A stretch of 64,000 nt of DNA, from contig JAPOVD010000001.1 in assembly GCA_026708305.1 (NCBI GenBank), forward strand, positions 62,001 to 126,000. The letters are read 5' to 3'. Below, piece after piece: positions 12,864 to 54,368 of this stretch. This stretch comes from Nitrososphaerota archaeon. GTDB taxonomy: Archaea > Thermoproteota > Nitrososphaeria > Nitrososphaerales > Nitrosopumilaceae. The notes beneath the pieces are model-generated. The model worked only from the letters and a program-made list of their open reading frames with translations. It did no database searches and was not told the origin of the DNA. The stretch's first letter is position 1. Every line of letters starts with the position of its first letter. A program made the position numbers and the translations under genes.

Positions 12864-12914
12864 ATTAATTTGTTATATAATTTAGCTTTTATTATGTTAT
12901 GGATACTAATTATT

Positions 12915-13904: not shown

Positions 13905-13913
13905 AGTTTATAA

Positions 13914-16342: not shown

Positions 16343-17513
16343 TTTTTAATTTTGATTTGATTATTTCAATATCTTTATCACCTCTCCCTGATATTGTTAT
16401 TACTATAGTCTCCGATTTTCTTCTTTCTTTTGCAATTTTAATTGCGTGTGCCACAGCATGAGCTGATTCTAATGCTGGTATTATACCTTCAGTTTTAGAC
16501 AATAATAAAAATGCATTAAACGCTTCATCATCATTTATGGTTTCATATTTTACTAATTTTTTAGTCATTAAATATGCATGTTCTGGACCTACTGCTGGAT
16601 AATCTAATCCTGCAGAAATACTATGTGTATTTTTTATTTGCCCTTCTTCATTTTGTAATACATATGTTAACATTCCATGTAATATTCCTTTTGATCCAAA
16701 ATTTAATGTTGCTGAATGTTTATCTGTATTTAATCCATATCCTCCAGCTTCTACACCTATCAACTCAATATTTTTGTTTAATAGTGGATAAAAACTACCT
16801 ATTGCATTAGATCCTCCTCCAACACAAGCAACAACAAAATCTGGGTTTTTTTTAATTTTTTCGTGCATTTGCATTTGAATTTCTTTACCGATTACAGATT
16901 GAAAATCACGTACCATAGTAGGATATGGATGTGGACCAACAGCAGATCCTATAAGATAATATGTATTTGTTACATTTTTCATCCAATCTCTAATCGCTTC
17001 ATTAATAGCAACTTTCAATGTTTGAGAGCCAGAATTAACTAAATGAATTTTTGAACCAAGCAATTCCATTTTTAATAAATTTGCTTTTTGTCTTATTGCA
17101 TCCTTATTACCCATATATATTTCTGACTTTAATCCTATTAATCTACACGCCATTGATGTTGCTATACCATGTTGTCCTGCACCTGTTTCTGCTATGACTC
17201 TATTTTTCTTCATTTTTTTAGCAAGTAGCACTTGTCCTAAGGTATTATTTATTTTATGAGCTCCTCCATGTAGTAAATCTTCTCTTTTTAAATAAATTTT
17301 TGCACCGCCGATTTTTCTGGTTAAATTCTTTGCATAGTATAATGGTGTTGGTCTCCCTGCATAGTCAATTAATAATTCAGTCAATTCATTTTGAAAATTT
17401 TTATCTTCACGTACTTTAAAATACTGATCTTCAAGCTCCTTGATTAATGGTAACAATGTCTCTGGAATGTATTTTCCACCAAATTCATCAAATTTTCCTT
17501 CGATTTTTTTCAT
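16329..17513 (-). CDS. trpB: Tryptophan synthase beta subunit
   Basis: 394 residues, a TrpB1-type length. The start [13 protein letters not shown], the PLP lysine in [19 protein letters not shown], the phosphate-binding VGGGSNAIG and the [16 protein letters not shown] block are all conserved. It condenses indole with serine. It overlaps trpC by 4 bases. Confidence 0.95.
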
Positions 17514-18280
17514 ATTGAATTCACAAATTTTTTAACACATTGTTGTATGTTATCATGTTTCATTATACTTGTGCCTATCAAAAATAAATCTGCTCCACAA
17601 CTTCGTAAAAACTGAATATCGTCTTGTTTATCAATACCACTTTCAGAAACAACTATTTTTGACTTGTTGTAGTTTTTTAATAGTTTTTTGGTAGTATGTA
17701 TATCTACTTTTAATGTATTCAAATTTCTATTGTTTATTCCAATTATATCAGCTTCAGTTTTTAATGAATCTATGAACTCTTTTTTTTTATGAGTCTCTAG
17801 TATTACTTTAATACCAAATTTATGGCTATATTCTATAATTTCATCTAATTCTTTCATATATCCTAAATCAAATAATGATTTTATTAATAATATATAATCA
17901 GCTCCAATTTTGTTAGCTGCATCTATTTGAATTTTGTCTATTATTATATCTTTCATTACCATTGGTATATCAAATTTTTTTCTTATCGACATAAATATTT
18001 GTGGTGATCCATTAAAAAAATATGGTTGTGTTAATACTGATAAACCTACAGCACCACCATTTATCATATATTGTGCTATTTCAGTTGGATCTAATCTCTT
18101 TCTTATTTTACCTTCTGAAGGTGATGAAAATTTTATTTCTGCAATTATTGAAGCATGTTTATTATTCTTAATTTTTTTATTTATATCGATTGTAGATTTT
18201 GCTAGATCGCATGAAATTTCATATGTGCCTAAACTAATAGAGCGTAATGAATTATTAACAAGTTTATTAAGAATATTCAT
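17510..18280 (-). CDS. trpC: Indole-3-glycerol-phosphate synthase
   Basis: 256 residues. The [15 protein letters not shown] segment (catalytic Lys and Glu region), [10 protein letters not shown] and VSESGI are family motifs. It closes the indole ring from CdRP. The protein ends where a normal single-domain TrpC ends, so there is no fused TrpF domain, although no separate trpF is in the operon. It overlaps trpD by 14 bases. Confidence 0.93.
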
Positions 18281-19313
18281 TTTTTATATTTTCTATATTT
18301 TCTAATTTTTTTATATCTCCATATTCTGTAATGAATTTTTTAAATAAATAATATGGTTTTTTTTCATAGATAGAATTTAATGCCATTTTAACACCTTCTC
18401 TGAAATCGCTTGCCAAATTAGAAATGATTAGTCCAGCAGCTGCATTGACAGCAATAATATTAATTAATGATTTTTTTGCTGTATTGTCTAGTATGGAAAT
18501 AAATGAAACTAATGCGTCTACATTAGAAGAAATTTGTATATCTGATAATTTTGTTTTTGGTAATCCAACATCTACTGTATTTAAAATAAATGACTTAATT
18601 TTTCCATTTTGAAGAATGCAAATATGATTATTTGATGTAGTAGAAATTTCATCTAAACCATCTTCAGATCTTACTGTCATTATATTTGTGCTGCCATTTT
18701 CTTTAAGAATTTTTGGTAATCTTTCTACCAGCTTGTCATCATAAACTCCTATTAACTGATTTTTAACACCAGCGGGATTTGAAATTGGACTTACTATATT
18801 AAATATAGTAGGACCATTTATCATTTTTCTTGCATTGTGAATATTATGTAATGCAGGATGAAATTTTTGTGCAAACATAAAACAAATATTGTATTTTTGT
18901 AACATCTTAATTATTTGATTAGGAGATTTATTTAGATCATATCCAAAATATTCAAAGATATCTGCACTTCCAATTAAACCAGAAGATGAACGATTTCCAT
19001 GTTTGGCTACTACGCCATTTAATGATGCAATTACAAATGCTGCTGCTGTGGATACATTTATTGTATTTTTTTTATCACCACCTGTACCACATACATCAAT
19101 AGCATTATCATTTTCTATTGGTACATGTATAGCAAATTTTTGCAAATTTTTTAACACTAATAACAATTCTTCATCAGATTCACCATGATTTGATAGTTTA
19201 GATAAAAATAAGGCAATTTTTTGATCAGATATCTCGCCATTTAGAATACTATTAATTGTTTTGTTAAATTTAGAACATCCTTGGTTATTTAATTTGTAAA
19301 CATCTCCAGTCAT
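18267..19313 (-). CDS. trpD: Anthranilate phosphoribosyltransferase
   Basis: 348 residues. The PRPP-binding CGTGGDKKNTINVSTAAAF, the VAKHGNRSSSG segment and the MINGPTIFNIVSPISNPAG block define the family. It joins anthranilate to PRPP. It overlaps trpG by 4 bases, consistent with a single polycistronic message. Confidence 0.94.
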   Translation of the reverse strand: MTGDVYKLNNQGCSKFNKTINSILNGEISDQKIALFLSKLSNHGESDEELLLVLKNLQKFAIHVPIENDNAIDVCGTGGDKKNTINVSTAAAFVIASLNGVVAKHGNRSSSGLIGSADIFEYFGYDLNKSPNQIIKMLQKYNICFMFAQKFHPALHNIHNARKMINGPTIFNIVSPISNPAGVKNQLIGVYDDKLVERLPKILKENGSTNIMTVRSEDGLDEISTTSNNHICILQNGKIKSFILNTVDVGLPKTKLSDIQISSNVDALVSFISILDNTAKKSLINIIAVNAAAGLIISNLASDFREGVKMALNSIYEKKPYYLFKKFITEYGDIKKLENIENIKNEYS

Positions 19314-19897
19314 TTTTTTACTAATTTCAAGAAATTTTTCAATATTTTTTTACCTTCTTGCGTCATAATTGATTCTGGATGAAATTGTAATCCTTTAATT
19401 AGAAATTTTTTATGCGTTACTCCCATGATTTCTTTATCATCTTGTGATATAGCTATTACCTTTAATGTGTTTGGTATGATGTTTTTATTACCAATTAATG
19501 AATGATATCTAGTACCACAAAATGGATTTTTCACATTATAAAATATGGGATCATCAGAATGTTCTATAATACTTGTTTTTCCATGTAGTATATTATGAGC
19601 AATGTCTATTTTGCCACCAAAGCATTTGATTATTCCTTGATGGCCTAAACATATGCCTAATATTGGAATCGATTTTCCAAAATTTGTAATAACTTTATTA
19701 CAAATTCCAAAATCTTTTTCATTTTCTACTGTTCCTGGACCTGGAGAAATTATTATGGCATCATAATTTGATGATTTTATTTTATTTAATGTAATTTCAT
19801 TATTTCTAATAACATCAACGTGTGCATGTAATTCGCCAAAAATTTGTGCTAAATTGTATACAAACGAATCATAATTGTCTAATATTAAAAAATTCAT
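19310..19897 (-). CDS. trpG: Anthranilate synthase glutaminase component
   Basis: 195 residues of class I amidotransferase. The start NFLILDNYDSFVYNLAQ, the IISPGPGTVEN oxyanion region, the nucleophile in LGICLGHQ and the QFHPESI triad segment are all there. It supplies ammonia to TrpE. It overlaps trpE by 4 bases. Confidence 0.94.
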   Translation of the reverse strand: MNFLILDNYDSFVYNLAQIFGELHAHVDVIRNNEITLNKIKSSNYDAIIISPGPGTVENEKDFGICNKVITNFGKSIPILGICLGHQGIIKCFGGKIDIAHNILHGKTSIIEHSDDPIFYNVKNPFCGTRYHSLIGNKNIIPNTLKVIAISQDDKEIMGVTHKKFLIKGLQFHPESIMTQEGKKILKNFLKLVKK

Positions 19898-21246
19898 CGT
19901 GATGCTAGTTTTAATGCTGTTAGCATAGCTGCAGCTTTGTAGTTTAACTCCTTAAATTCGTTTTGAAATTTTGAGTCTAGTAGAATTCCAGCTCCTGTTT
20001 GTATGAATCCTTTATTGTTATTTATAAAAATACTTCTGATCGAGATTGCAAAATCGCAATTACCATTACTGGAAAAATATCCTACAGCTCCTGCATATGG
20101 TCCTCTCTTATTTTTCTCTAATTTATCAATTATTTGTATGGCTCTAATTTTTGGAGCGCCTGAAACAGTTCCAGCAGGAAATACAGATTGAAATGCATCA
20201 AACATGTCGTATTCTTTTTTTAATTTTCCAATTATGTGTGTTATCATATGTTGAACATGACTATATTGTTTTATTTTCATAAAATCGTTAACTTTGATTG
20301 TTCCATATTTGCATATTTTTCCCAAATCGTTTCTACCTAAATCTACTAACATCGTATGTTCTGCTACCTCTTTTTCATTTTTTTGTAATTCATTTTTTAA
20401 TTTATCATTTTTGGATTTGTTTTTGCTTATTTTTCTAGTACCAGCAATTGGAAATGTTTCAATTACGTTATTTGTAATACGTAATAGCATTTCAGGACTA
20501 CTACCAATAATTATTTTATTCTTCATTTTTAGATAATATAAATATGGAGACGGATTTATTTTTCTTAATTCGTCATAAATCTTTAATGCATCGCCCTCCA
20601 CATCAAAATTAATTCTTCTAGACAACACAATTTGAAAAATATCGCCTATTGCAATGTGTTGCTTGGCTACTGTTAATATTTTGTTAAAATTTTTTGCATT
20701 GATATTAGTTTTTAATTTAGATATTTTACATTTGTTAAAATGATGTTTTTCTAGATTTTTTAATTTTTCAAATCGATTATTTTTCAAGTAGAAATAATTT
20801 AATTTTTTATTTTTTTTATCATAGATAATACCATCTTCATATATGCCAAATTCCATTAAAATGTTTTTATTTTTATTTTTCAAGCTTTTTTCCCATATTC
20901 CAATTGCATCGTAGTTGATTATTCCTACTGCGCCTCCAAAATATCTATATGTTTTTTTTGTAGATTTGGGTATTAAATTCTTGATCACAATAAAAGGCTT
21001 ATCAGTTAATATGATTTTATTTTTTTTATCTTTATAATTTAATACAATCTTATTTGAATATACCTTTATCATTTTTGATGGATCAAACCCAATTATTGAT
21101 GACTCGACTAATTCTTTGGGACCTGACATCGACTCTAATAAAAAAGTGTAATCATATGATAAGCTTAATTTTTTATAAAGTTCATAAGGTGTAATATCAA
21201 ATTTTATACCTAACATCTTAGAATTAATATTACCAAATATATCCAC
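19894..21246 (-). CDS. trpE: Anthranilate synthase component I
   Basis: 450 residues of chorismate-utilising enzyme. C-terminal motifs are FQIVLSRR, the LVDLGRNDLGKI segment, the VFPAGTVSGAPKIRA block and GPYAGAVGYF. It converts chorismate to anthranilate with TrpG. The feedback site (an LLES motif, seen here as TFLLESMSGP) is present, so tryptophan inhibition is likely. It is the first gene of trpEGDCBA-pyrG, 52 bases after ilvD on the same strand. Confidence 0.94.
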   Translation of the reverse strand: MDIFGNINSKMLGIKFDITPYELYKKLSLSYDYTFLLESMSGPKELVESSIIGFDPSKMIKVYSNKIVLNYKDKKNKIILTDKPFIVIKNLIPKSTKKTYRYFGGAVGIINYDAIGIWEKSLKNKNKNILMEFGIYEDGIIYDKKNKKLNYFYLKNNRFEKLKNLEKHHFNKCKISKLKTNINAKNFNKILTVAKQHIAIGDIFQIVLSRRINFDVEGDALKIYDELRKINPSPYLYYLKMKNKIIIGSSPEMLLRITNNVIETFPIAGTRKISKNKSKNDKLKNELQKNEKEVAEHTMLVDLGRNDLGKICKYGTIKVNDFMKIKQYSHVQHMITHIIGKLKKEYDMFDAFQSVFPAGTVSGAPKIRAIQIIDKLEKNKRGPYAGAVGYFSSNGNCDFAISIRSIFINNNKGFIQTGAGILLDSKFQNEFKELNYKAAAMLTALKLASR

Positions 21247-21298
21247 CCATACACATTCTTCTTTTTAACATTATTTAAAATTAGTTATTAGCCTTTTT

Positions 21299-22975
21299 CT
21301 AAATAGGATTAGTTACTGCTCCTCTAGATGCAGATCCTACTAATAATAAGTATTTTAGTAAAACAGGAGATGTAGAATTTATTTTGGGTCTGTTCCATTC
21401 TTCTTTTCTTTTATTTAATTTTTCTTTTGAAATCAATAAATTTAGTTTGTTTTTATTAATATCTATTTCAATTTTGTCGTTATCCTTTACATATGCAATG
21501 TTGCCTCCTACAAATGCTTCTGGTGCTACATGTCCTACCATTAAGCCTCGTGTTGCACCTGAAAATCGTCCATCTGTTACTAATGCTACTGTATCACTTA
21601 ACCCAGATCCTACTAACGCAGCTGTTACTGATAACATTTCCCTCATTCCGGGACCGCCTTTTGGACCTTCATATCTTATCACTACTACGTCTCCACTTGA
21701 TATTTTATTATCTAATACTGCACTAAATGCATCTTCTTCATTATCAAATACTTTTGCATGTCCTATGAATCTGTTCTTTGTAGTACCTGATATTTTAATA
21801 ACAGCACCTTCTGTAGCAAGAGAACCTTTGAGAATAACTGCAGTGCCTGATTTGTGTATTGGTGCATCTAAAGATCTTAAAACATTATTTTTTTCATAAC
21901 TTAAAGTTTTTATTGAATCCAAGTCTTGCTTTAATGTATTTCCAGTTATAGTCAAAACATTTTCATTGATTAATTTCTTATTTTGCAATTTTTTTAATAG
22001 ATTTGGTACGCCTCCAATTTTATCTAAGTCTAGCATCAAATAATTACCACCAGGCTTCATATCTGCAATATGTGGTGTTTTTTTCCTAATCGTTTCGAAA
22101 TCGTCATAATTTAATTTTATTCTGGATTCATTTGCAATTGCTAATAAGTGTAAAATGGCATTTGTTGATCCACCTATAGCATTTAAAACAGTAATTGCAT
22201 TTTCAAAAGCTTCGAATGTTAAAATATCGCGTGGTTTTATATCGTTCTCTAATGATTTTTTAATTATTTTTCCACTATGATAACAAATTTCTTTTCGTCT
22301 TTCATCTTCTGCAGGTGGACTTGCACTACCTGGTAATGCTAAACCTAAAGTTTCACTTATTACTGCCATCGTATTAGCTGTAAACATACCTCCGCATGAA
22401 CCTGCACTAGGACATGCATAATTTTCTATATTTTTTAATTCATCCATCGTAATTTTTTTATTGTTATAAGATCCTACTGCTTCATATACATCTTGAATAG
22501 TTATTTGTTTGCCATTATAAATACCTGGCATTATCGTACCTCCGTATATAAAAATAGATGGAATATTTAATCTAGCCATAGCCATCATTGTCCCTGGTAA
22601 ACTTTTATCACATCCTGCTATCCCTATTAAACTATCATATTGATGTGCTCTAATCATCAATTCTATTGAATCTGCTATGATCTCTCTGCTTACTAATGAA
22701 GCTTTCATACCTTGATGCCCCATGGCAATTCCATCACTTACTGCTATCGTACTAAATTGACGTGGTGTTAAACCAGATTCAGTGACTCCTTTTTTTACAT
22801 GAAGTGCTAGTTCACCAAGATGAATATTACATGGTGTTGCTTCGTTTCCAGTATGACATATTCCAACAAATGGTTTTTCCAAATCAATATCACTTAATCC
22901 CATTGCTTTGTACATAGCTCTTTGTGGAGATCTAGTAATACCTTCTACAACATTTCGACTAGATATTCTCAACAC
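21299..22975 (-). CDS. ilvD: Dihydroxy-acid dehydratase
   Basis: 558 residues. Iron-sulfur ligands appear in [19 protein letters not shown] and [16 protein letters not shown], and the conserved [19 protein letters not shown] block lies near residue 470. It makes the keto acids of valine and isoleucine synthesis, working with the threonine ammonia-lyase at 40326-41528. It lies directly upstream of trpE on the same strand and may share regulation. Confidence 0.95.
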
Positions 22976-23013
22976 AATGAAAATATACTAATCTAATTTA
23001 GAGCTTTTTACAA

Positions 23014-23583
23014 TTAGTTGATTATAGCTTGTGATTCTAACTCTATTAATTGTTCTTGTATTTGAGATTCATTTTCATTTCCATATGAGATCAATATTCT
23101 GTCGTTTTCATTTATGACGTAATTGGTTATGGAATCTATTTTCTTTTGATTTATATAAAATTTTAAAGAATATTTTTCATTTGTACAAAATTCCCTCTGA
23201 TCTGGAAATATATAACAATTTTCTGTTATTGTTATACCTAATGATTCAAATAAATATCCTAATTTTACTCCTGTAGAATGCATGTGAATTGTTGAACCAT
23301 CACGTGCTTCGAAATGTATCCAACTGTTTTTTATTTGATACGCAGGAAGTGAAAAATCAAATTTATCTCCAAATATACGTACTAAAATAGATGCATGGAT
23401 ATGTTCATCCCCCAATTTTCCAGCACCATCAGGAGTATTATCATTATTGTATTCAATATTTGTAAAGTTATAGACTGATATTCCAATAATTACAGCAATA
23501 GCTATTAGAACAGATGTAGTTATTAATTTCTTTTTAAGTTTCTCATTAGAACTCCGTGCAACAAAATTTCTACGATCATTCAT
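23014..23583 (-). CDS. Membrane-anchored His-rich extracytoplasmic protein
   Basis: 189 residues. A single N-terminal membrane helix (about residues 20-42) follows a basic cytoplasmic stretch, so the rest should face outward. The outer domain has a dense histidine pattern, DEHIHA, WIHFEARDG and STIHMHSTG, then a pair of cysteines near NCYIFPDQREFCTN, and ends with NDRILISYGNE. Similar proteins are found in Nitrosopumilales, sometimes loosely labelled disulfide isomerases; there is no CxxC motif here. The histidines suggest metal (perhaps copper) binding, an inference. Upstream of ilvD on the same strand. Confidence 0.7.
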   Translation of the reverse strand: MNDRRNFVARSSNEKLKKKLITTSVLIAIAVIIGISVYNFTNIEYNNDNTPDGAGKLGDEHIHASILVRIFGDKFDFSLPAYQIKNSWIHFEARDGSTIHMHSTGVKLGYLFESLGITITENCYIFPDQREFCTNEKYSLKFYINQKKIDSITNYVINENDRILISYGNENESQIQEQLIELESQAIIN

Positions 23584-23648
23584 ACTTTTAACTCCTATTA
23601 ACCTAAATTTAACTTATTATATAAGTAACTAATAATATATATTTATTT

Positions 23649-24056
23649 ATGGCTTGCATATTTTGTGATATAGTAAATAAAAAATTAGATAGCCATCTAA
23701 TCTATGAAGACAGCGAGCATATTGCATTCCTAGATAAATATCCTATTGATATTGGACATAGTCTAGTTATACCTCGCAAACATTATGAAAAGATAATAGA
23801 TATGAATGAAAGCGAAGTTGGAGATCTTTTCTCCAAAGTACCTAAAATAGCAAAAGCTATACTCAATATAACTTCTGCTAATGCATTTAGTTTAGGACAA
23901 AACAATGGAAAAGCAGCCAAACAAGTTGTTCCGCATGTACACGTACATATTATTCCTAGATATAATGAAAAAGGTACAGTTTGGACTAATAGGAAAATTG
24001 GAAATGAACATGAATTGAATATGCTGGCACAAAAAATCAGGCAAAAATTCTTTTAA
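23649..24056 (+). CDS. HIT-family nucleotide hydrolase/transferase
   Basis: 135 residues with the defining histidine triad HVHVHIIPR near residue 98 and the zinc-like start CIFCDIVNKK. HIT proteins split nucleotide phosphoramidates or dinucleoside polyphosphates. The LDKYPIDIGHSLVIPRKHYE segment is the usual HINT/HIT substrate strand. It is divergent from the His-rich protein and its stop lies 3 bases from the convergent aRF1 gene. Confidence 0.9.
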   Translation: MACIFCDIVNKKLDSHLIYEDSEHIAFLDKYPIDIGHSLVIPRKHYEKIIDMNESEVGDLFSKVPKIAKAILNITSANAFSLGQNNGKAAKQVVPHVHVHIIPRYNEKGTVWTNRKIGNEHELNMLAQKIRQKFF

Positions 24057-24059
24057 TTA

Positions 24060-25331
24060 TTATTTTAATACTTTGTAACGTAAAACAGCAGCTATTTTAC
24101 CCAAACTATTAAGCATGGCTCCATGTTCTGTTTTACTAGATATGATCTCAACTTTTGTATTTATGTTAGATGCAATTAAAACGATATAATCCACTATATC
24201 CTGTGTTGATGAAGTTAAATCCACGCTTTTACAATTTGAACATGGTATGGAAAGCAAACTAGTTTTCCTTGATATGGCTTCTACATTATTTACAATTTCT
24301 TCGTATGTATTTGCGCATCTTTTACATTTTATTCCTATTATTGATTTATTTATGTCACTACTTATCAGTATTTTATCTATGATTCTATTTTTTAACAGAT
24401 TTACAACATCTTTTAAACCATAAACAACAAGTCCAGATTTTGAATTTATATGTTTGAATAATGTTTCTACCATTATTTTTTCTTTCATCAATCTAAAATT
24501 AGATAATATTGATTCAGACTTAGAAAAAGCTTCTCTTATGCCCTCTGCTCCAGAATATGAAGCATCTATTGTTGCAATTATCATTTTTTGTAAACGATAT
24601 TCTAAATAATTATTTTTAATGAAATTTTCTTTTGTTGGGCCTGGGCCAGAAATAATCAATCCTTTGATTGGATATATATCTATAAAATATTCTTTCGTTA
24701 TTTCTGCTACTCTATTAAAAAAATAAGTTAATTCCATTTCCCTTAATTTTTGAAAACGTTTTGCTGATTGCCCTCCTTGTCTGTGCTTTCCAGATACACC
24801 AGATCCAGTTTCTTTTAGAACTTCTAATCTATCTCCATGTAACAAACCCCAACCAACATCTTTTGAATCAATAGCTAAAAAACCTATTAAAACATCATTT
24901 TTTAACATATTTTTTAAAATATCTGTGTGAAAATGATCATCGCACCTATAAAGAAAAATTTTTAAATCTTTGGGAGGATCAATTTCGTATAATTTGATAC
25001 TCTCATCACCTAAAGGTCTACCTCCTTCTGGTGATAAAGCTCCGCAAAATACTATTAAGCCTCTATCTGGGGTTTTTTTATATAGTTTCAATCTTTGTAT
25101 TACTCGTGATAAAGAATCTAATACGTGAGTACGTGTAAGATCTGATTTTATATTACTTGCTGTTCCTTGCTCTTCTCGTAAGTTATTGATAACTTCATGT
25201 AATTGTTTATTTTTTGGGATGTATACGCTAATTAATTCAGTTCCATGTCCTTGCATGTTAGATAATTCGTTCAGCATTTTTCGTATTTTGTAATTTTTTA
25301 CAGAATTTTCTTTTTCTACGGTAATGTTCAT
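24060..25331 (-). CDS. prf1: Peptide chain release factor aRF1
   Basis: 423 residues, colinear with archaeal RF1. The NIKS stop-codon motif lies in ASNIKSDLTRT (about residue 62), the catalytic GGQ in KHRQGGQSAKRF (about residue 185), and a C-terminal domain has two cysteine pairs (CKRC and CSNC) for zinc. It reads all three stop codons and triggers peptide release. Single gene, convergent with the HIT gene. Confidence 0.95.
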   Translation of the reverse strand: MNITVEKENSVKNYKIRKMLNELSNMQGHGTELISVYIPKNKQLHEVINNLREEQGTASNIKSDLTRTHVLDSLSRVIQRLKLYKKTPDRGLIVFCGALSPEGGRPLGDESIKLYEIDPPKDLKIFLYRCDDHFHTDILKNMLKNDVLIGFLAIDSKDVGWGLLHGDRLEVLKETGSGVSGKHRQGGQSAKRFQKLREMELTYFFNRVAEITKEYFIDIYPIKGLIISGPGPTKENFIKNNYLEYRLQKMIIATIDASYSGAEGIREAFSKSESILSNFRLMKEKIMVETLFKHINSKSGLVVYGLKDVVNLLKNRIIDKILISSDINKSIIGIKCKRCANTYEEIVNNVEAISRKTSLLSIPCSNCKSVDLTSSTQDIVDYIVLIASNINTKVEIISSKTEHGAMLNSLGKIAAVLRYKVLK

Positions 25332-25418
25332 ATGGCCAAATTAAATTTTCTAATTATTAAGTTTAATAAAAGTAGTAACCATCTCGTTTAAATAATTAAT
25401 TAGTTGTTTATTCTATAA

Positions 25419-25748
25419 TTGAATAAAAAATTAACAATAACCCAAAAAAAAAAATTTGATATTACCCAAAGAATAATTGAAGCTTTAACAGATATTCAAT
25501 CTCGTACTATAATATTTTCCATTATAAAGAAAGGTAAAACTGCTACAGAATTATCAGATAAATATAAAATACCGCTAAGTTCAGTTTATAAAAAATTAAC
25601 AGATTTAGAAGAACTTTCACTTATTCGTGTAGAACAATTGTTAATTTCTGACAGCGGACGTAAATTTAAGATATTTAAAAGTAGGATCAGTAAAGCAAAT
25701 ATAATTATAAAAACATCTGAACCGATACTTACTTTGATACCAAACTAA
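25419..25748 (+). CDS. ArsR-like winged-helix regulator
   Basis: 109 residues with one winged helix: a KGKTATELSDKYKIPLSSVY helix-turn-helix, then KLTDLEELSLI and an IRVEQLLISDSGRKFKIFKS wing. No cysteine metal site is present. The TTG start at 25419 is the only good one. It lies 82 bases upstream of phnD in the same direction, with a 9-bp inverted repeat between them, so local control of the transporter is plausible. Confidence 0.8.
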   Translation: MNKKLTITQKKKFDITQRIIEALTDIQSRTIIFSIIKKGKTATELSDKYKIPLSSVYKKLTDLEELSLIRVEQLLISDSGRKFKIFKSRISKANIIIKTSEPILTLIPN

Positions 25749-25750
25749 TA

Positions 25751-25776
25751 ATATATTCTAAATTTTAAGAATATAT
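25751..25776. promoter_or_regulatory. 9-bp inverted repeat between regulator and phnDCE
   Basis: Perfect arms ATATATTCT / AGAATATAT separated by 8 bases, beginning 3 bases after the regulator stop and ending 54 bases before the phnD ATG. The size and AT content fit a binding site for a small winged-helix dimer such as the upstream gene product; a transcription end for the regulator is the alternative. Confidence 0.4.
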
Positions 25777-25830
25777 GTTTAGAATTATTGACTCATTTAA
25801 ATAAAGTAAGTTGGTTCTATAATTACTATA

Positions 25831-26754
25831 ATGAAAAAATTATTTTATATGATAATTGTTTTGTTTTTTATCCAAATATTTCCTGTTAGTGGCATGCAAA
25901 TTTCTGAAATGCAAAATATAACTATTGGTTTTATACCTGTAGAAAACGCAGCTCAATTACAATCTTCAGCTCAAACATTTGAAAATTATCTTGAACAATA
26001 TTTAAATGGTATAGATGTGAAAATAGTAGTACCTACAAGCTATGAGATGTTAATAGAGGGATTAAGATTTGGACACATAGACGCTTCATTCATGGATGCT
26101 GGCTCCAGTTGGATTGCACACAAAAAAACAGGAGCGGAAGTAATTTTTGCGGAAGTAGTGAATGGTAAAGTAAATTATAATGCAACATTATATACTAAAT
26201 ATGAAGATGACACAATACAAAATATCGAAGATACAATTGGAAAGAAGGTAGCATTTACGAGTATAACTGGTTCATCTGGATTCATTGTTCCAATGGGAAA
26301 ATTACTAAAATCTAATATAATTAATGATACTCCAAATGATTTTGTATCGTTAGAAGCTTCATTATCAAATATATTTGCTAACTATACATTTGCTGGTGGA
26401 TATAAAGCAGCTTTAAAACTATTAGTGAACGGAAATGTAGACGCAGCATTTTCATCAGACACTGCACCACAAAATTTTTTGACAATTGAGGAACAAAATA
26501 AGATAAAAGTAACAGAAATTATAGGATCGGTACCGTCTCATACATTTATGGTGAGTTCTAATTTACCAAATAACATAGTCCAAAAACTTTCTAATGCGCT
26601 AATCAGTTTAAACTATGAAGCAAATAATAATATTCTCAACAATATTTATGGTGCTGATGCACTGGTCCCAACTACAACCAAAATGCATATATCTGAATTT
26701 GGTGAATACATAGACACATTAGTAGGGATAGAAGACGAAATACTAAATCGCTAA
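25831..26754 (+). CDS. phnD: Phosphonate/phosphite-type ABC substrate-binding protein
   Basis: 307 residues. A signal peptide is visible (MKKLFYMIIVLFFIQIFPVSG). The mature part has the PhnD pattern: NITIGFIPVENA, VPTSYEMLIEGLRFGHIDA, KKVAFTSITGSSGFIVP and the AGGYKAALKLLVNGNVDAAF block. It captures the ligand outside the membrane for PhnCE. Ligand (phosphonate, phosphite or another oxyanion) cannot be told from sequence; no phosphonate-degrading gene is in the window. Confidence 0.88.
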   Translation: MKKLFYMIIVLFFIQIFPVSGMQISEMQNITIGFIPVENAAQLQSSAQTFENYLEQYLNGIDVKIVVPTSYEMLIEGLRFGHIDASFMDAGSSWIAHKKTGAEVIFAEVVNGKVNYNATLYTKYEDDTIQNIEDTIGKKVAFTSITGSSGFIVPMGKLLKSNIINDTPNDFVSLEASLSNIFANYTFAGGYKAALKLLVNGNVDAAFSSDTAPQNFLTIEEQNKIKVTEIIGSVPSHTFMVSSNLPNNIVQKLSNALISLNYEANNNILNNIYGADALVPTTTKMHISEFGEYIDTLVGIEDEILNR

Positions 26755-26767
26755 AATCATTAACTTC

Positions 26768-27541
26768 ATGTTGTCCAATTTAACAAAAAATAATCTTGCA
26801 ATAGATATGAATAATGTTTGGTTATCTTATGACAATATTAATTATGTTTTAAATGGAATTACATTATCTATAAAAAAATCTATAAATTATACAATTATCG
26901 GACATTCTGGATCTGGAAAATCAACACTATTAAAAATAATCAATGGTTTGTTGACTCCGTCTAAAGGAACAATAAAAGTATTTGGAATTATACCAGATCA
27001 TCAAAATAGAAAATTTAAAAATCTCATGAAAAACATTGGTTATATACCTCAAAGTTTGGGTTTGGTAAAAAATATCACAGTGTTAGATAATGTATTAATT
27101 GGTGCATTGACAAGGATTAACAAAATTAAATCATTTTTCAAAATTGTACCTGATGTTGAAATAGATAACGCACAAAATGCAATAAAAATGGTTGGTCTAG
27201 AAGATAAAACAGAAAAAAAAGTATTTACACTTAGTGGTGGTGAGAAAAGACGTGTAGCTATTGCACGAGCATTAGTACAAAAACCTATACTTTTATTAGC
27301 AGACGAAATTGTCTCTGAATTAGATCATGTTACATCAAAAGAAATAATGAATTTAATAATAGAAACACAACATAAACTAAACCTAACATCTGTAATGATT
27401 CACCATGACATTAAATTGGCTTTGGATTATGCTGACATGATCTCAGTATTACAAAAAGGACAAAAAATACTAGAAATTGGTGTAGATGGAAACACTATAA
27501 CAGAATTTGATGTAACAAAGAATCAACTTGCTAAATTATAA
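26768..27541 (+). CDS. phnC: PhnC-type ABC transporter ATPase
   Basis: 257 residues. Walker A GHSGSGKST near residue 48, Q-loop YIPQSLGLVKNITVLDNVL, signature LSGGEKRRVAIARAL, Walker B ILLLADEI and a switch His in MIHHDIKLAL are complete. It powers PhnE. The gene follows phnD by 13 bases and overlaps phnE by 14. Confidence 0.9.
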   Translation: MLSNLTKNNLAIDMNNVWLSYDNINYVLNGITLSIKKSINYTIIGHSGSGKSTLLKIINGLLTPSKGTIKVFGIIPDHQNRKFKNLMKNIGYIPQSLGLVKNITVLDNVLIGALTRINKIKSFFKIVPDVEIDNAQNAIKMVGLEDKTEKKVFTLSGGEKRRVAIARALVQKPILLLADEIVSELDHVTSKEIMNLIIETQHKLNLTSVMIHHDIKLALDYADMISVLQKGQKILEIGVDGNTITEFDVTKNQLAKL

Positions 27542-28304
27542 GATCAACTTAATAATAGGACTATTAATAACAGCAATAATCTATTCGTACTTAAATCTAA
27601 ACATAGAACCTCTAAAATTTATAAGTGGTATTTCAAATCTATTAATAATTTTTCAAGAAATCAAAAATATTGAATATTCGTTGTTATTAATTGCATTGAC
27701 ATCTATGATGGAAACTATCCAGATGGCATTTTTAGGAACGATTTTTGGCTCAGTAATTGCGTTCCCTTTAAGTATTTTTGCATCTAGAAATTTAACTAAC
27801 AAATATCTATATTTGACAACAAGATGTTTTTTAGCAGTCGTTAGAACATTTCCATCTATATTATGGGCTATATTATTTGTGATTGTAGTAGGTTTAGGAC
27901 CATTTGCTGGTGTGTTATCTATAACATTATATACAATAGGTTTTATAACAAAACTACAATACGAATCAATAGAAGCAATAGATTTTGAAATAATAAACAA
28001 CATAAGGTCAATTGGTATTTCTAAATTACAATTAATAAGATATGTTATTATTCCAGAATCGGCTCCACATTTATTAAGTCAACTTTTGTATACTTTTGAT
28101 TATAATGTACGACACACTAGCATAATGGGATTAGTAGGAGCTGGTGGAATTGGATTCTATATAATTAATTATATAAAATTTTTTGAATATGAAAAAGCAC
28201 TTATTTTTATGTTGGTAGTACTAGTAACAGTTATTATTATTGATCTTTTGAGTGTCAAAATTAGAGATAATTATATTATCAAAATTATTAAATCAAAAAA
28301 ATAA
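27528..28304 (+). CDS. phnE: PhnE-type ABC transporter permease
   Basis: 258 residues with about six membrane helices. The EAA-loop segment SIGISKLQLIRYVIIPESAP contacts the ATPase, and VRHTSIMGLVGAGGIGFYI is the conserved PhnE signature. The TTG start overlaps the phnC end by 14 bases. It completes a three-gene importer with phnD and phnC. Confidence 0.9.
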   Translation: MLNYKINLIIGLLITAIIYSYLNLNIEPLKFISGISNLLIIFQEIKNIEYSLLLIALTSMMETIQMAFLGTIFGSVIAFPLSIFASRNLTNKYLYLTTRCFLAVVRTFPSILWAILFVIVVGLGPFAGVLSITLYTIGFITKLQYESIEAIDFEIINNIRSIGISKLQLIRYVIIPESAPHLLSQLLYTFDYNVRHTSIMGLVGAGGIGFYIINYIKFFEYEKALIFMLVVLVTVIIIDLLSVKIRDNYIIKIIKSKK

Positions 28305-28339
28305 CTGGTAAATTATAAAAATAATCAAAAATAACCTCA

Positions 28340-29362
28340 CTATGAAATAATTTTACTTAAATTGTCATTACTTATACTTTCTCGTATTTCTTTTGCAATG
28401 CGTCTACCCATACTCATATTTTCGTTATATAATAATGCAGAATATGGAGACCCATTTATATATACATTAGTTCCAGCTACAATTCGTGCCGAAAATTCAA
28501 ATGCTGTAAAATTAGCATTACTATCGTATACGCCTTCTATACAAAAAGGACCAATAATTCCAGGATTAACCAACTTTTTTGATGCTTCAATAAAGCGTTC
28601 TCCTATTGAATATACTTCATCCAACAAAGATTCACGTAGCACCATTGGACTATTTCCTATCACATTAAATGTCAATTCTTTATTAATTTTATTTTGGTTT
28701 GATGCAGGGATTCTTGATAATCCATCTATATTTGATTCATGTCTTTGATCTATCCCAAGAAATTCCAACTCATTTTTGGTTGGTGAATAAAAATATTGTA
28801 AATACACTAAAACACCTGAAATGTATTCTTGAATATACAATTTATCATTTTTATTGATTGTTTTTTTATTGATTAAATTAGACAATTTTTTTTTATATTC
28901 CATTTCATTAGATGCCAAAAAATAACCAGCTCCTCCTGCAGCACCATCTCTTTTTATTATTGATAATTTACAAATCTGAGATGGAGTAAGTATTCTTTTT
29001 GGAGTTGGAATGTTTGCTTTCTTTAACAATTTTTCTTTTTTAATTCTATCTGATTCCCAACGTAAAATCCATTTATTTCCAAATATTGGAATATTTATAG
29101 ATTCAATCTCATTTGAGCTTAACTGTGAAATTAATGTACCGTGTGGAATAAGTATAGAATTATCAAGTTTTTTTGAATATTCTTTTTTTAATATTTCGTT
29201 AAATGAATCAACTAATATTATCTTATCTATAAAATTAAACCGTTTATACAATCTTTCACGTCTTTTCTCACATATTAAAATTGTATTTAACTTCTCATCA
29301 TTAGCTCCTTTAAGTAATTGTAATGCGCAATGCGAGCCAAGTGTAGCTACGCTTTTCATCAT
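28340..29362 (-). CDS. purP: FAICAR synthetase PurP (canonical copy)
   Basis: 340 residues with intact ATP-grasp features: IPIFGNKWILRWESDR, the Gly-rich GAAGGAGYFLAS loop near residue 145, GIDQRHESNIDGLSR and the AFEFSARIVAGTNVY metal-site block. The enzyme makes FAICAR from AICAR, formate and ATP, replacing PurH transformylase in archaea. The frame opens at ATG 29362, only eight residues before GSHC, about 15 fewer than usual. The plus-one frame just upstream (from about 29396, with an ATG at 29369) reads like the missing N-terminal helix and ends KYDEK, so a one-base error or mutation in the A-run at 29353-29356 may have cut the gene. Confidence 0.9.
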   Translation of the reverse strand: MMKSVATLGSHCALQLLKGANDEKLNTILICEKRRERLYKRFNFIDKIILVDSFNEILKKEYSKKLDNSILIPHGTLISQLSSNEIESINIPIFGNKWILRWESDRIKKEKLLKKANIPTPKRILTPSQICKLSIIKRDGAAGGAGYFLASNEMEYKKKLSNLINKKTINKNDKLYIQEYISGVLVYLQYFYSPTKNELEFLGIDQRHESNIDGLSRIPASNQNKINKELTFNVIGNSPMVLRESLLDEVYSIGERFIEASKKLVNPGIIGPFCIEGVYDSNANFTAFEFSARIVAGTNVYINGSPYSALLYNENMSMGRRIAKEIRESISNDNLSKIIS

Positions 29363-29449
29363 ATTTCATTCTTTTTTTTACTATTTTAAAATTATGCTAT
29401 TTTTATTTTTATAAGTAAATTTATTACGTAAGTTATTGTGTTATAGCTA

Positions 29450-30760
29450 ATGAACAATAATAATATGAGCCATACTGATAACTGTATAAAAAGAGATCAT
29501 TATTCTAAAGAATTAAAAAATACAAATGTTGAATTAGTAACAGTAACAGGTTGGATTTCAAGTATACGCAGTCATAAAAACATTAGATTTGTTACAATTC
29601 AAGATCGGTTTGGGGAAATACAAATTGTAGCTAAACGTGGCACATGTAATAATGACATTTTTGATATGATTCCAAAACTAAAAGAACATTCATCAATATC
29701 AGTCAATGGTAAACTACAATCGTCTGAAAAGTCACCTAACGGTGTAGAAATAATACCATTCCAAATAAACATCATTTCTAAAGCTGAAAAAATATCTCCT
29801 TTTAACAATAATGCAAAAACACTAGAAAGCATTGATACGCGATTAGATTTACGTGCAATAGATCTAAGGAGAAAATCATTACGAGATTTATTTTTAATAC
29901 GAAATGAAATATTAAAATCAATTCGTAAATATTTTTATCAGAATTACTTCGTTGAAGTTAATACACCGAAAATAATTTCGACTTCTACTGAAGGTGGATC
30001 GTCTCTATTCCCAGTTTTTTATTATAATAAAGAAGCTTTTTTAGCTCAAAGTCCACAATTATATAAAGAACAACTAACAATGAGTTTTGAAAAAGTTTTT
30101 GAAATATCGTCCATTTTTAGAGCTGAAGCGTCTAGAACTAATAGACATTTATCAGAAGCGATTTCGATAGACTTCGAAGAAGCTTTTGTAAATTATTTTG
30201 ACATTATGGTTCGTCTTGAACATATAATAAAAACTTCGTTGGAAACGTTAAATAGATTTATTAAATGTCAAAATATTGTTATCGATATTCCAAAAACTCA
30301 AGATGTAATTCCCAAATATACTTATGATGATTTAATTAATGAAATACAAAAAACAGGATATGATGTAGAATGGGGAGACGATATTAGTCCTAAACATTTA
30401 AAAAAATTAGGGCTAAATGATTTTTATTTTATAATTGATTGGCCTAATTCAACAAAGCCATTTTATGTTAAAGATAAATCTAAAACAATATCAGAATCAT
30501 TTGATTTAATGTATGGAGATCTTGAAATATCATCTGGTAGTACCAGAATTTCAAATAAAATTGAAATAAAAAACAAGATGCAAAACAAAAGCATGCATAC
30601 AAATTTATTTGATTATCACTTACGTGTTTTTGATTATGGTATGCCACCACATTCTGGATGTGGTATAGGTTTGGAACGATTTTTAATGGTGCTCACTAAT
30701 ACTACTAATATACGCGATGTTTCATTTTATCCACGTGATGTGGATAGATTAATTCCATAA
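29450..30760 (+). CDS. aspS: Aspartyl-tRNA synthetase
   Basis: 436 residues, the archaeal type. An N-terminal OB-fold (VTVTGWISSIRSHKNIRFV) binds the anticodon; class II motif 2 is FRAEASRTNRHLSE and motif 3 is HSGCGIGLERFLMVL. It heads an operon with gatC, gatA and gatB. This linkage suggests a non-discriminating enzyme that also charges tRNA-Asn for amidation, an inference from context. ATG 29465 is an alternative start. Confidence 0.94.
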   Translation: MNNNNMSHTDNCIKRDHYSKELKNTNVELVTVTGWISSIRSHKNIRFVTIQDRFGEIQIVAKRGTCNNDIFDMIPKLKEHSSISVNGKLQSSEKSPNGVEIIPFQINIISKAEKISPFNNNAKTLESIDTRLDLRAIDLRRKSLRDLFLIRNEILKSIRKYFYQNYFVEVNTPKIISTSTEGGSSLFPVFYYNKEAFLAQSPQLYKEQLTMSFEKVFEISSIFRAEASRTNRHLSEAISIDFEEAFVNYFDIMVRLEHIIKTSLETLNRFIKCQNIVIDIPKTQDVIPKYTYDDLINEIQKTGYDVEWGDDISPKHLKKLGLNDFYFIIDWPNSTKPFYVKDKSKTISESFDLMYGDLEISSGSTRISNKIEIKNKMQNKSMHTNLFDYHLRVFDYGMPPHSGCGIGLERFLMVLTNTTNIRDVSFYPRDVDRLIP

Positions 30761-33902: not shown

Positions 33903-35180
33903 TTAACTTTTTTTTTTGTTAGAATTAATTATTTTTTTAATTTCATTTGTTACTTGTGGTAAGAATACACCTACGTCTGACACTATTCCTAATGCTTGCC
34001 ATGTTCCTCGATCTATTATCTTGGTTACAGTGGTTTGGTTTATATCTATTGCAATAACCTTAACTTTAGCTGGTAACATGTTGCCTGTAGCTATTGAGTG
34101 TAACATGGTAGATGCCATAATCACAAGATCTGCATTTTCCAATTGTTTTTTGTATTTTTCTTGCGCTTCCATTATATCAGTTATTACATCTGGTATTGGT
34201 CCATCATCTCTTATAGATCCAGCTAAAACAAATGGAATATTGTTTTTTATACATTCAAACATGATACCTTTTTTTAATTTACCTGTTTTTACCATATTTT
34301 TAATAGAACCAGATTGAAAAACAGAATTTATTGCATACATGTGATTTCTATTTCCATGTAATGCTAATGTACCATCATGAATATTCATGCCAAGAGAGGT
34401 TCCAAGAATTGAATTTTCTATGTCGTGAACAGCTAATGCATTTCCTGCTAGGATGCTATCTATTAAACCTAATTTAATTAATACAGATACTGATTCTGAT
34501 GCTCCGGTATGAATAATTGCGGGACCAGCTACTAAAATGATTTTACCATTTGAATTTTTTATTTTCATTATATCTGAAGCTACTTTTTTTACCATATGAT
34601 TTGTAGGCCTTTCGCTTGAATTATTACTAGTCATAAAATTAAAGACATTATTTTTATCACGCGGACGTTCAATAGGAAAAATCTTTATTCCTGAATCTCC
34701 AACAACTATTTTGTCTCCTTTTTTTATTTCTCTAATAGGTATACATTGTGCAATACTTTTTTTAATTATTATGCATTTGTCCATCATTATGTTCTTAACA
34801 TTTATCCATTTGTTATGATAGAAAACTTTTGTCTCATTATTGGTAGTGCTATAAAAATTATTTGGCATGATCATGTTTCCTGGAGCTGTTTCTATCTTAA
34901 TTTCTTCTTGTTTTGTGTTTATGGCTCCAAGACTATGAGTGAGATCTAAAATTTTATCTAGTTGATTTTGAGTTTTACCCTCAACAATTAGTTTTACATA
35001 GCTTTCATCATTTTTTTTTTTACCAATGGAAATTTCTAATATCTGAAATTCACCATCTAAATCCATTATACCAGAAAAAACTTTAGTTAAAATTAATGAA
35101 TCTATTAGGTGGCCTTGCATTTCTATTTCACGTGAAAACTTGTTGGATTTGTTATATTGAGTATGATTTAATGAAGACAT
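33903..35180 (-). CDS. TIGR00300 LOR/SDH-family protein (ornithine cyclodeaminase-like)
   Basis: 425 residues. An N-terminal LOR/SDH-type region (residues 15-110, with EMQGHLIDSLILTKV and ETAPGNMIMPNNFY) is followed by a Rossmann-like part: VAGPAIIHTGASESV, IDSILAGNALAVHDIE, SLGMNIHDGTLALHGNRNHM and AIDINQTTVTKI. Archaeal members of this family include an ornithine cyclodeaminase that makes proline from ornithine; homologous domains occur in arginine dihydrolase. Which reaction applies here is not decided by sequence. Directly convergent with gatB (no gap). Confidence 0.82.
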   Translation of the reverse strand: MSSLNHTQYNKSNKFSREIEMQGHLIDSLILTKVFSGIMDLDGEFQILEISIGKKKNDESYVKLIVEGKTQNQLDKILDLTHSLGAINTKQEEIKIETAPGNMIMPNNFYSTTNNETKVFYHNKWINVKNIMMDKCIIIKKSIAQCIPIREIKKGDKIVVGDSGIKIFPIERPRDKNNVFNFMTSNNSSERPTNHMVKKVASDIMKIKNSNGKIILVAGPAIIHTGASESVSVLIKLGLIDSILAGNALAVHDIENSILGTSLGMNIHDGTLALHGNRNHMYAINSVFQSGSIKNMVKTGKLKKGIMFECIKNNIPFVLAGSIRDDGPIPDVITDIMEAQEKYKKQLENADLVIMASTMLHSIATGNMLPAKVKVIAIDINQTTVTKIIDRGTWQALGIVSDVGVFLPQVTNEIKKIINSNKKKS

Positions 35181-35182
35181 AG

Positions 35183-35530
35183 TTAAACTGGTAATTTCAC
35201 TTTTCCATGATATTTTGGAATTTTATCTTTTGTTAACATGTTTATGCATTCATTTTTTAGTTGATCATTAACTCCTTGTATTAGTGATTTTGAAATCCCA
35301 TCTTCATCACAAATTGTTATTAGGCATCCATTAGAATTAGATAATACATATCCGCTAAATTTATCTATAATCGCATAAAAATTTTTTTCTCCTACTGGTT
35401 CCCATGAATCAAATTTTTCTTTTATGGCCAAAGCTGGTAATGCCAAATTTGAATCCAGAATTTCATTTAAATACTTTCTAGCTGATTCCACTCTTTTTTG
35501 CCCAATTCTTAATGCATTAAAATATTGCAT
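35183..35530 (-). CDS. Hypothetical protein
   Basis: 115 residues, soluble, not recognised. It starts with a basic helix (ALRIGQKRVESARKYLNEIL), has an FDSWEPVGEKNFYAIIDKFS segment and ends in KIPKYHGKVKLPV. It is 2 bases upstream of the LOR/SDH gene on the same strand, so the two are likely co-translated; this is the only clue to role. Confidence 0.68.
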   Translation of the reverse strand: MQYFNALRIGQKRVESARKYLNEILDSNLALPALAIKEKFDSWEPVGEKNFYAIIDKFSGYVLSNSNGCLITICDEDGISKSLIQGVNDQLKNECINMLTKDKIPKYHGKVKLPV

Positions 35531-35684: not shown

Positions 35685-36186
35685 TTATTTTGTAGATTTT
35701 AATTTTTTATGAAATCTAATAATTTTTTTTAATTGTCTATTTTTAATTTTATTTCCTACATAATCTAAAAATAAGTTTAATAGTTTATTGTTTTGAGTAT
35801 ATATTCTTGCTTGATATGCTAATTCTAGCTTGTCTACTTCATGTACTAAATTAGCTTCTTTTGTCTTGTTTAAACTATATTCTTCATAGTTCATTATATG
35901 TATTGTGATGTTTTCTGGTAATTTTTGTAAAATTTTTCTTATTGTTGTATTTTCTATAATTACATCATGCTTAGACTTATACTCAAGTATAAGATTGTTT
36001 GTGATGGACTTTGCAAGATCATATAAAATAGACATTTGCGATATTTTTTCTGTATTTAATTTTTCTAGATCTGAAATAATCATTGATATGCATCCTATAC
36101 AATAACTATGAGCTGCAACTGATTTTGATTGTAGAATTCTTAGTTTGTTAATCCATCCATTTTGTTTTATAGTTAAATTTCATCAT
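35685..36186 (-). pseudogene. HD-domain phosphohydrolase, frameshifted and catalytically decayed
   Basis: An intact frame of 132 residues (35685-36083) ends with the LVHEVDKLELAYQARIYTQ block of YfbR/HDDC2-like HD hydrolases. The same frame stays open upstream without a normal start and encodes GWINKL and SVAAHSYCIG, the first His motif of the family. The usual N terminus (MMKFNYKTK) is in the neighbouring frame from ATG 36186. The two join if one A is dropped from the four-A run at 36160-36163, giving about 167 residues, the family size. The HD doublet reads YD (SILYDLAKS) and the following Glu and Gly-Asp are Lys and Asn-Asn, so the active site looks lost. If the frameshift is not real, a 132-residue protein from ATG 36083 remains. 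Confidence 0.65.
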
Positions 36187-36307
36187 TATATCTAAAAACT
36201 CAAAATTTTTTACATTCTAAATATGTTAACATGATAATTTAGTTGTATAATTAATAAAATTTTATGAATATTAAATAATGTTAATAATGTTATAATTATG
36301 GTTTGAT

Positions 36308-36844: not shown

Positions 36845-36880
36845 AAACATTAAATTCGTATATGAATTAAATTTTGCTAT

Positions 36881-36954
36881 GCCACGGTAGCTCAGCATGG
36901 GAGAGCACTCGGCTGAAGACCGAGCTGTCGCGCGTTCAAATCACGCCCGTGGCA
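36881..36954 (+). tRNA. tRNA-Phe (GAA)
   Basis: A full cloverleaf: acceptor GCCACGG / CCGTGGC with discriminator A, D arm GCTC...GAGC, anticodon arm CTCGG-CTGAAGA-CCGAG with anticodon GAA, and a GTTCAAATC T loop. No intron and no encoded CCA. The T stem has one C-A mismatch (position 52-62) next to the closing G-C pair. A TATATG box lies at 36859-36864, a plausible promoter element. Confidence 0.95.
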
Positions 36955-37016
36955 TGAAAATATAGTAACATAAAGCATAATGTTTTAATATATTGCATTC
37001 TTTTTTTCCGATCATA

Positions 37017-39457: not shown

Positions 39458-40303
39458 ATGAACCATAATTATTTGTTAATGCAATTAGGTTTAAATTCAA
39501 ATAGCAAATTTACACATCAATTCAATATAAAATATAATGAATTTTGTAAGCTACTAATCTCTCAAATTAAAACACTTGCTAGAACCTCTCCTAATTTAGT
39601 CATGTTATCAGATAAAACTATTCGTAAACAAAATTCATTTGATCCTGAGAAAATTTATAATTTTTTTAAGATTTTTGAATCTAAATTAATAAATTTTATT
39701 GTGGAATCTACATCTACTTCAATTACTGAAGACAAAAGAAGAATTTTTTTAAAATTTAATACCAATAAAAATAATTATATTCTTTCTGCTAACATTTCTT
39801 TTCAATATCATGTTTTATTATATTATAAACCTAATAATATAGTATCTAAATATCAAAATGAATTACTTACACTATCAAATAATGCTACACATGCTAAAAA
39901 TAATTTGAATGTGAAAGGAAATAATATTATAATATCTATATTTAATAAATTAGGTTATCAAAATTTAAATGAATTAGAATTATTTAAAATATTTTTTAAT
40001 AACCAATCATTAGTTGATGAAATACAAAATAAAATAAGAAAAGAAGAAGAAGAACATGCCAAATTTGTAAAACAAGAAAAAAGAATACTAAAAAAACTTG
40101 ATGATTTGTTGGTTGAAATATATTCTACTAAATCTATTTTATTAGATGAAAAAAAATTAATGGAAGGTGAAGATGGTTGCTCTTGCAGTTTTTACTTGAA
40201 ACATAAAACAAAAATTAATGTTGAAAAAATCCCATATATTGTACAAAAAGAGTTTTTGTTACGACTAGATGAATTGATTAACATTATGAAAAATAAAATA
40301 TAA
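39458..40303 (+). CDS. Hypothetical protein, charged and helical
   Basis: 281 residues, not recognised, divergent from the cyclase. The first two thirds are Asn/Lys-rich and mixed; residues about 190-230 are a strongly charged helix (IRKEEEEHAKFVKQEKRILK) likely to coil; a GCSCSFYLKHKT segment with a CxC pair follows, and the protein ends in another helix. No signal or membrane segment. The Asn/Ile/Lys richness suggests rapid drift toward AT-rich codons. Confidence 0.65.
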   Translation: MNHNYLLMQLGLNSNSKFTHQFNIKYNEFCKLLISQIKTLARTSPNLVMLSDKTIRKQNSFDPEKIYNFFKIFESKLINFIVESTSTSITEDKRRIFLKFNTNKNNYILSANISFQYHVLLYYKPNNIVSKYQNELLTLSNNATHAKNNLNVKGNNIIISIFNKLGYQNLNELELFKIFFNNQSLVDEIQNKIRKEEEEHAKFVKQEKRILKKLDDLLVEIYSTKSILLDEKKLMEGEDGCSCSFYLKHKTKINVEKIPYIVQKEFLLRLDELINIMKNKI

Positions 40304-52973: not shown

Positions 52974-54368
52974 ATGACAGCTGGGATAGATGATATATCT
53001 ATTTACATACCAAGACTATTTATTTCTGCTTCTGATTTTGCTCTTGCTCGTGGTCTTGACATTAAGAAGCTTGAAAATGGATTAGGGATATCAAAAATGG
53101 CTATTGTGGATGCCAATCAAGACCCTGCTTGTTTAGCTGCTAATGCATGTTTAAAAATCATGCAAAAAAATAATTTATCGCCAAATGATATAGGTAGATT
53201 GTACATTGCAACAGAATCTTCATTTGATGAGTCAAAAGCTATGAATTCGTATGTAATTGGCATGTTGGAACAAATTTATGGAAATGGTTCATTTGAACAT
53301 TGTGGAGGAATAGAATGTAAATTTGCATGTGTAAGTGGATCTTATGCATTATATGATAATTTAAATTGGATAAGAGCTGGAGAAGCAGAAGGAAAACATG
53401 CGTTAGTAGTAGTTTCAGATATAGCAAAATATGATTTGGGTTCTAGTGGAGAAGTAACTCAAGGCGCTGGAGCAATAGCTATACTTCTTAATAACAATCC
53501 TAGATTATTAAAATTTGATCCTAAAGTAACTTCAACTTCAATCAAAAATGAATATGATTTTTATAGACCGTTTGGAAAAGAAACACCAATAGTAAATGGA
53601 AAATATTCTAATTTATTATATCTGATACAAGTCAAAAAAGCTTTATCTACATATAAGAAAAAAGCTTTTTCTACAGGTTTAATTAAATTAAAAAATGACG
53701 AAACCATATTGGATTATATTGATTATCTAAATATGCATTTACCATATAGTAATATGGGCAAAAAGGCATTAGCATATTTATTAAGACATGAATGGCGAAA
53801 CCTATCTAGATGGAATAATATAATTTCAAAAATTGGAATGTCAGAGCCAACACCAAAAAATGTGAGAGGAACTATAGAATCTGTTTTAGCAGACTCTAAT
53901 TTCATGCAAAATGATCATAAGTTTACACAATTATTTGTCAACACAAAAGAATTTCAAGATGTATATGAATCTAAGCTGGCTAGCTCATTAATAGCATCAA
54001 AAATTATTGGAAATTTATATACAGCATCATTATACTTAGGTTTCAGAAGTAGTTTAGAATTTGAATTCCAAAAAGGAGTAGATTTAGATGGAAAACGAGT
54101 TGGTTTTGGATCTTATGGTAGTGGAAGTAGTGCTATGATATTTAGTGGACTCATTCAACCAAGATATAAAGAGATAGTAAAAGATATGAACCTAGAAATC
54201 GAAATTGGTAAACGTAAAAAACTTAGTTTGGAAGAATATGAAGAAATACATGAAAATAAGCGTCATGTTGATGAAAATATACTAGATAGTAAAAAAGAGT
54301 TTATTTTGATAGATATAAAAAATAAAAACAAAAACAATGGAAAACGTACATACAAATTCAATGAATAA
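52974..54368 (+). CDS. Hydroxymethylglutaryl-CoA synthase (long form)
   Basis: 464 residues. The start GIDDISIYIPRLF, the catalytic Cys119 in ECKFACVSGSYAL and the VGFGSYGSGSSAMIF block define HMG-CoA synthase. It makes HMG-CoA from acetoacetyl-CoA and acetyl-CoA, the entry to the mevalonate route for archaeal lipids. At this length it follows the bacterial/eukaryotic form and not the short form of about 350 residues used with DUF35 in many archaea. The ATG at 52974 is preferred to TTG 52926. Its stop overlaps the next gene. Confidence 0.9.
   Translation: MTAGIDDISIYIPRLFISASDFALARGLDIKKLENGLGISKMAIVDANQDPACLAANACLKIMQKNNLSPNDIGRLYIATESSFDESKAMNSYVIGMLEQIYGNGSFEHCGGIECKFACVSGSYALYDNLNWIRAGEAEGKHALVVVSDIAKYDLGSSGEVTQGAGAIAILLNNNPRLLKFDPKVTSTSIKNEYDFYRPFGKETPIVNGKYSNLLYLIQVKKALSTYKKKAFSTGLIKLKNDETILDYIDYLNMHLPYSNMGKKALAYLLRHEWRNLSRWNNIISKIGMSEPTPKNVRGTIESVLADSNFMQNDHKFTQLFVNTKEFQDVYESKLASSLIASKIIGNLYTASLYLGFRSSLEFEFQKGVDLDGKRVGFGSYGSGSSAMIFSGLIQPRYKEIVKDMNLEIEIGKRKKLSLEEYEEIHENKRHVDENILDSKKEFILIDIKNKNKNNGKRTYKFNE

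Follow-up and report, generated by a model that had tools for sequence, protein, structure and literature searches.

The closest described systems to the gene studied here are the YfbR/HDDC2-like 5'-deoxynucleotidases, which include E. coli YfbR, yeast YGK1, human HDDC2 and the archaeal proteins 1XX7 and 2CQZ. Glu72 of YfbR is needed for catalysis. The YfbR mutant crystallized with bound dAMP carries the substitution E72A (PDB 2pau). In the E. coli enzyme, the metal ligands are H33, H68, D69 and D137, and YfbR is inactivated by substituting the metal ligands, R18, W19 or D77 (PMC8177086).

The window, by which we mean the whole 64,000-nucleotide stretch of DNA that was analysed, carries on its minus strand the single HD_3 copy of a genome of 836,782 bases (9 contigs, 95.5% complete). 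We put the probability at about 0.8 that this gene is a recently inactivated copy of a YfbR/HDDC2-like 5'-deoxynucleotidase gene, that is, a pseudogene in a reduced Nitrosopumilaceae genome. The original prediction had listed a pseudogene among several readings, and it is now the best supported of them, given two N-terminal defects, an active-site loss that no relative shares, and outlying divergence. We infer that no active product is made.

A single HD_3 gene in a conserved neighbourhood

The main remnant (35685..36173, minus strand) runs from TIKQNGWINKL to KSTK, is open down to its TAA, and reads (TIKQ)NGWINKLRILQSKSVAAHSYCIGCISMIISDLEKL...ILYDLAKSITNNL...LVHEVDKLELAYQ...KSTK before the stop. 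This frame matches the HD_3 profile (PF13023) at 8e-16, with 58.8 bits against a curated cut-off of 22.5; the N-terminal frame is so short that it scores against the profile only when joined to the rest. Its solved relatives by sequence are human HDDC2, the Pyrococcus proteins 2CQZ and 1XX7, and yeast YGL101W.

The neighbouring genes are intact. A cobalamin adenosyltransferase (PF01923; 36308..36844, plus strand) is the divergent neighbour, as it also is in G004, a genome of the same genus, and downstream lie a conserved 115-aa protein without a Pfam match (35183..35530, minus strand) and an LOR/SDH ArgZ-like enzyme (33903..35180, minus strand). This arrangement, HD gene included, recurs across relatives. 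Judged by synteny and its single copy, the broken gene is the orthologue of the YfbR/HDDC2-like HD_3 gene. The only tRNA found in the window, a tRNA-Phe (GAA), occupies 36880-36955, and the antisense ORF over it looks gene-like and is not a gene.

The HD gene is nearly universal in the family, being present in 137 of the 151 Nitrosopumilaceae genomes searched and in 94 of the 96 good ones. A search of genome contigs led by the window protein gave no matches, and an alignment led by the G004 protein gave 80 named loci. In two genomes (G006 and G142, 97% and 99% complete) there is no match to the HD protein, and there the gene is dispensable or replaced. Because two otherwise good family genomes go without it, the gene can be dispensed with, and dispensability fits a pseudogene. 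The same-genus copy in G004 is intact, 182 aa long, and has all active-site residues (ADHSY, LLHDLAES, GDFTPE). G026, a third genome of the genus, is uninformative: its contig stops just short of the locus, and the search for the HD gene there gave nothing.

A deletion and a probable second lesion at the N terminus

The HD gene had been predicted to be broken by an extra A in a four-A run. The break in the frame holds; its place does not. In the DNA alignment with G004 the AAAA run (36160..36163, minus strand) is ungapped, and a gap of two falls at aaattt--aactataaaac, within 36171..36180 (minus strand), its exact place ambiguous by a few bases, so the extra A is not the lesion. The spacing in relatives agrees with a deletion of two: from GAG 36201 to GGA 36158 there are 43 nt in the window against 45 in relatives, and the codon count from the N-terminal helix to Gly-Trp is identical in 29 of 29 aligned relatives, G004 included. 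Dropping one A from 36160-36163, against this fixed spacing, gives a protein one residue shorter than all relatives, and that repair was rejected. With the deletion reading, the codons before Gly-Trp are T-I-K-Q-N in the window, N-I-K-R-S in G004 and K-I-P-R-Q in most relatives, and this reading therefore puts a Gln (CAA, 36162..36164, minus strand) at the Arg of R-x-G-W, which is invariant in relatives. The case shows that what looks like one base too many in a homopolymer may in truth be a deletion nearby, a few bases off.

Beyond the deletion zone, the N-terminal remnant continues in the first frame as NVKNFEFLDIMMKF (36175..36216, minus strand), which TAG 36219-36217 closes upstream. ATG 36186 was earlier taken to mark the expected N terminus, and this proved not to be so. 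The frame that it opens has 12 codons (MMKFNYKTKWMD and then a stop, minus strand), homology continues for at least 5 codons upstream of it (EFLDIMMKF in the window, EFFSIIMNL in G004), and relatives start earlier. In fact, the start codon lies exactly 18 codons before Gly-Trp in 27 of the 29 aligned relatives, a position about 8 codons upstream of 36186; the other two are L005, which gave no start call, and G004, an exception with an ATG at 26 or a TTG at 16 codons before Gly-Trp as candidates. TTG is apparently the start at this fixed distance in most relatives' HD genes (L002-L030). The window has AAA at position 18 and TTT at position 16, and no ATG, GTG or TTG occurs in the N-terminal frame between ATG 36186 and the TAG just upstream. 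ATG 36186 and ATG 36183 fall at internal positions 10 and 9, and G004 also has Met at 9. The loss of the start is probably a second lesion, separate from the deletion; its direction is suggested by one same-genus comparison, that with G004.

The HD frame likewise has no canonical start (ATG, GTG, TTG) before ATG 36083. Frame reading bears out that SVAAHSY lies in frame upstream of this codon without a start of its own. The 132-aa ORF from the internal ATG (35685..36083, minus strand) comes without helix 1 and the first His. Close relatives that begin at 36083 and have no N-terminal HD region were looked for, as had been proposed, and none turned up, so that this check did not refute the prediction: the region with the N-terminal His is present in the same-genus copy and in every full-length relative.

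Active site, fold and divergence

Of the metal ligands H...HD...D, three are retained. The first His (36108..36110) and the last Asp (35832..35834, in VHEVDKLE) are kept, and the HD doublet is YD (TAT GAT, 36018..36023), with the His lost and the Asp kept. Lys stands for the Glu equivalent to E72 of E. coli YfbR (36009..36011), and Asn-Asn for the Gly-Asp that contains D77 (35994..35999; all on the minus strand). These changes are as the original prediction described them, and the Gln for the Arg of R-x-G-W was found in addition. By alignment, then, the gene lacks the equivalents of H68 (Tyr) and D77 (Asn), and probably of R18 (Gln), which is mapped to the R-x-G-W Arg by position only. Among 139 distinct relatives, the His, Asp, Glu and second Asp are each covered by 135-138, all of which keep these residues. 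The window has lost 8 of the 27 outgroup-invariant sites, and G004 has lost 2.

The expectation that the fold is kept is consistent with an AlphaFold model of the HD frame alone (pLDDT 82.6, pTM 0.79), which was guided by the relatives' alignment and is partly inherited from them. The top Foldseek matches are human HDDC2 chains (TM 0.81), among them the mutant H77A, in which the substituted residue is the His that the window's gene has lost, and the best PDB matches by fold, as by sequence, are HDDC2 and archaeal homologues. An HD-domain fold would be retained if the protein were made.

The HD gene is the least similar of the 53 genes shared with G004 (48%, against a median of 72%), has nearly the weakest codon-position constraint among them, and is the only one with a broken frame. 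Coding constraint is still visible in its differences from G004 at the three codon positions (0.35, 0.26, 0.42). Compared with its neighbours, the window-G004 identity of the HD gene is 0.25 below that of the adjacent cobalamin gene, where other pairs average 0.06 below (sd 0.04, largest 0.18), and the deficit relative to the 115-aa neighbour, 0.28, is no larger than some other pairs show (mean 0.15, largest 0.32). Branch lengths are 1.19 for the window, 0.96 for G004 and at most 0.63 for other tips. Since the G004 branch is also long, any relaxation would have begun before the two lineages split, or in both. The window holds other fast-evolving genes that are intact, at 39458-40303 and 54319-54828 (55% and 51% identity to G004). 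Separately, nothing in the fetched part of G004, which is itself incomplete and partly masked, closely matches a region of about 17 kb (11930-29600) that carries CTP synthase, IlvD, anthranilate synthase, aRF1 and a phosphonate-type ABC transporter.

A look for other degenerate relatives among 40 further fetched loci turned up as oddities only G052 (broken by a short tandem repeat), G021 (cut by a run of N), and contig-end pieces or upstream-frame fusions. In the G052 gene (L104:800-1160) the break comes from a direct repeat of about 44 bases that spans the HD motif; the motifs are intact, and this is perhaps an assembly artefact.

A dying gene or a retained protein?

So, is the gene dead? Against intact orthologues both its frame and its start are broken, as in a pseudogene. 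On a loss of purifying selection the evidence points two ways, with strong divergence at invariant sites on one side and a remnant free of stops on the other. The main rival holds that catalysis went first and that the HD protein stayed on in a non-enzymatic role, its translation now beginning at an internal codon (ATG 36083, for instance) or at a non-standard one. The state of the remaining frame speaks in its favour: the 158 codons of the remnant contain no stop (the other five frames contain 7-21), codon structure persists, and the fold is predicted to persist and to resemble human HDDC2. In a neutral simulation that starts from G004 codons under an assumed mutation bias, and whose figures are therefore rough, the probability of no stop is 0.05 at 85% identity to the start sequence and 0.0007 (0.07%) at 65%. 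However, the 30 residues upstream of ATG 36083 are 13/30 identical to G004, about as much as the whole protein, so 36083 is not the long-standing start. A product from it would come without helix 1 and the first His, nothing points to a working start, and none of the relatives combines a kept gene with a dead site. We consider a retained non-enzymatic protein possible but less likely than a pseudogene, and on balance unlikely. Against the pseudogene count this same absence of stops, the remaining codon constraint and the well-predicted fold. On that reading the absence of stops and the simulation indicate that the frame was kept until recently and that the decay is young; most of the divergence must predate the break, at a time when the frame was still under constraint, and the break itself must be a late event.

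It is improbable that assembly or sequencing introduced the frame break into a gene that is full-length but catalytically dead. One mistake of 2 nt is conceivable where the sequence is so rich in A, but no frameshift interrupts any of the 52 other genes that G004 shares (38 kb), although they hold 1,077 A/T runs of 4 to 11 bases; the few stops in the alignments of these genes fall either before the true start or in the antisense frame over the tRNA. An error at the lesion is unlikely because these genes are clean and because it would have hit the one gene without a start and active site; the lack of a start and the replaced active-site residues are, in any case, defects of their own. The candidate was set aside on the clean record of these genes.

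Restoration of the full protein by programmed frameshifting or transcriptional slippage at the AAAA run, an idea encouraged by two adjacent frames that hold two parts of one gene, is highly improbable and finds no support, given that the AAAA run is not the lesion, the 2-nt deletion being about ten bases off, that a shift of +1 or -2 would be required to connect the frames, that no relative is split at this place, where the A run is not the junction, and that the upstream frame has no normal start anyway.

A pseudogene would have arisen as follows. The HD_3 gene probably evolved unusually fast in this genus, with the catalytic residues lost in the window's lineage, and the 2-base deletion and the loss of the start codon would now block synthesis of the full-length protein. 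Such decay may have been allowed by a lost need for dNMP hydrolysis in a shrinking genome. The locus would be a clear picture of gene death in a reduced Nitrosopumilaceae genome: a nearly universal gene of nucleotide metabolism has its active site gone and its frame broken, with the rest stop-free.

The gene resembles the YfbR/HDDC2-like enzymes in its HD_3 match, its predicted fold, and the kept first His, HD Asp and last Asp, and differs from them in the lost second metal His, Glu72, Asp77 and R-x-G-W Arg and in a frame and start that are no longer intact. With pseudogenes of genome reduction it has in common a reduced genome (837 kb), apparently relaxed evolution, a frame-breaking deletion, a lost start and intact neighbours, and the only difference is the continued absence of stops from the remaining frame.
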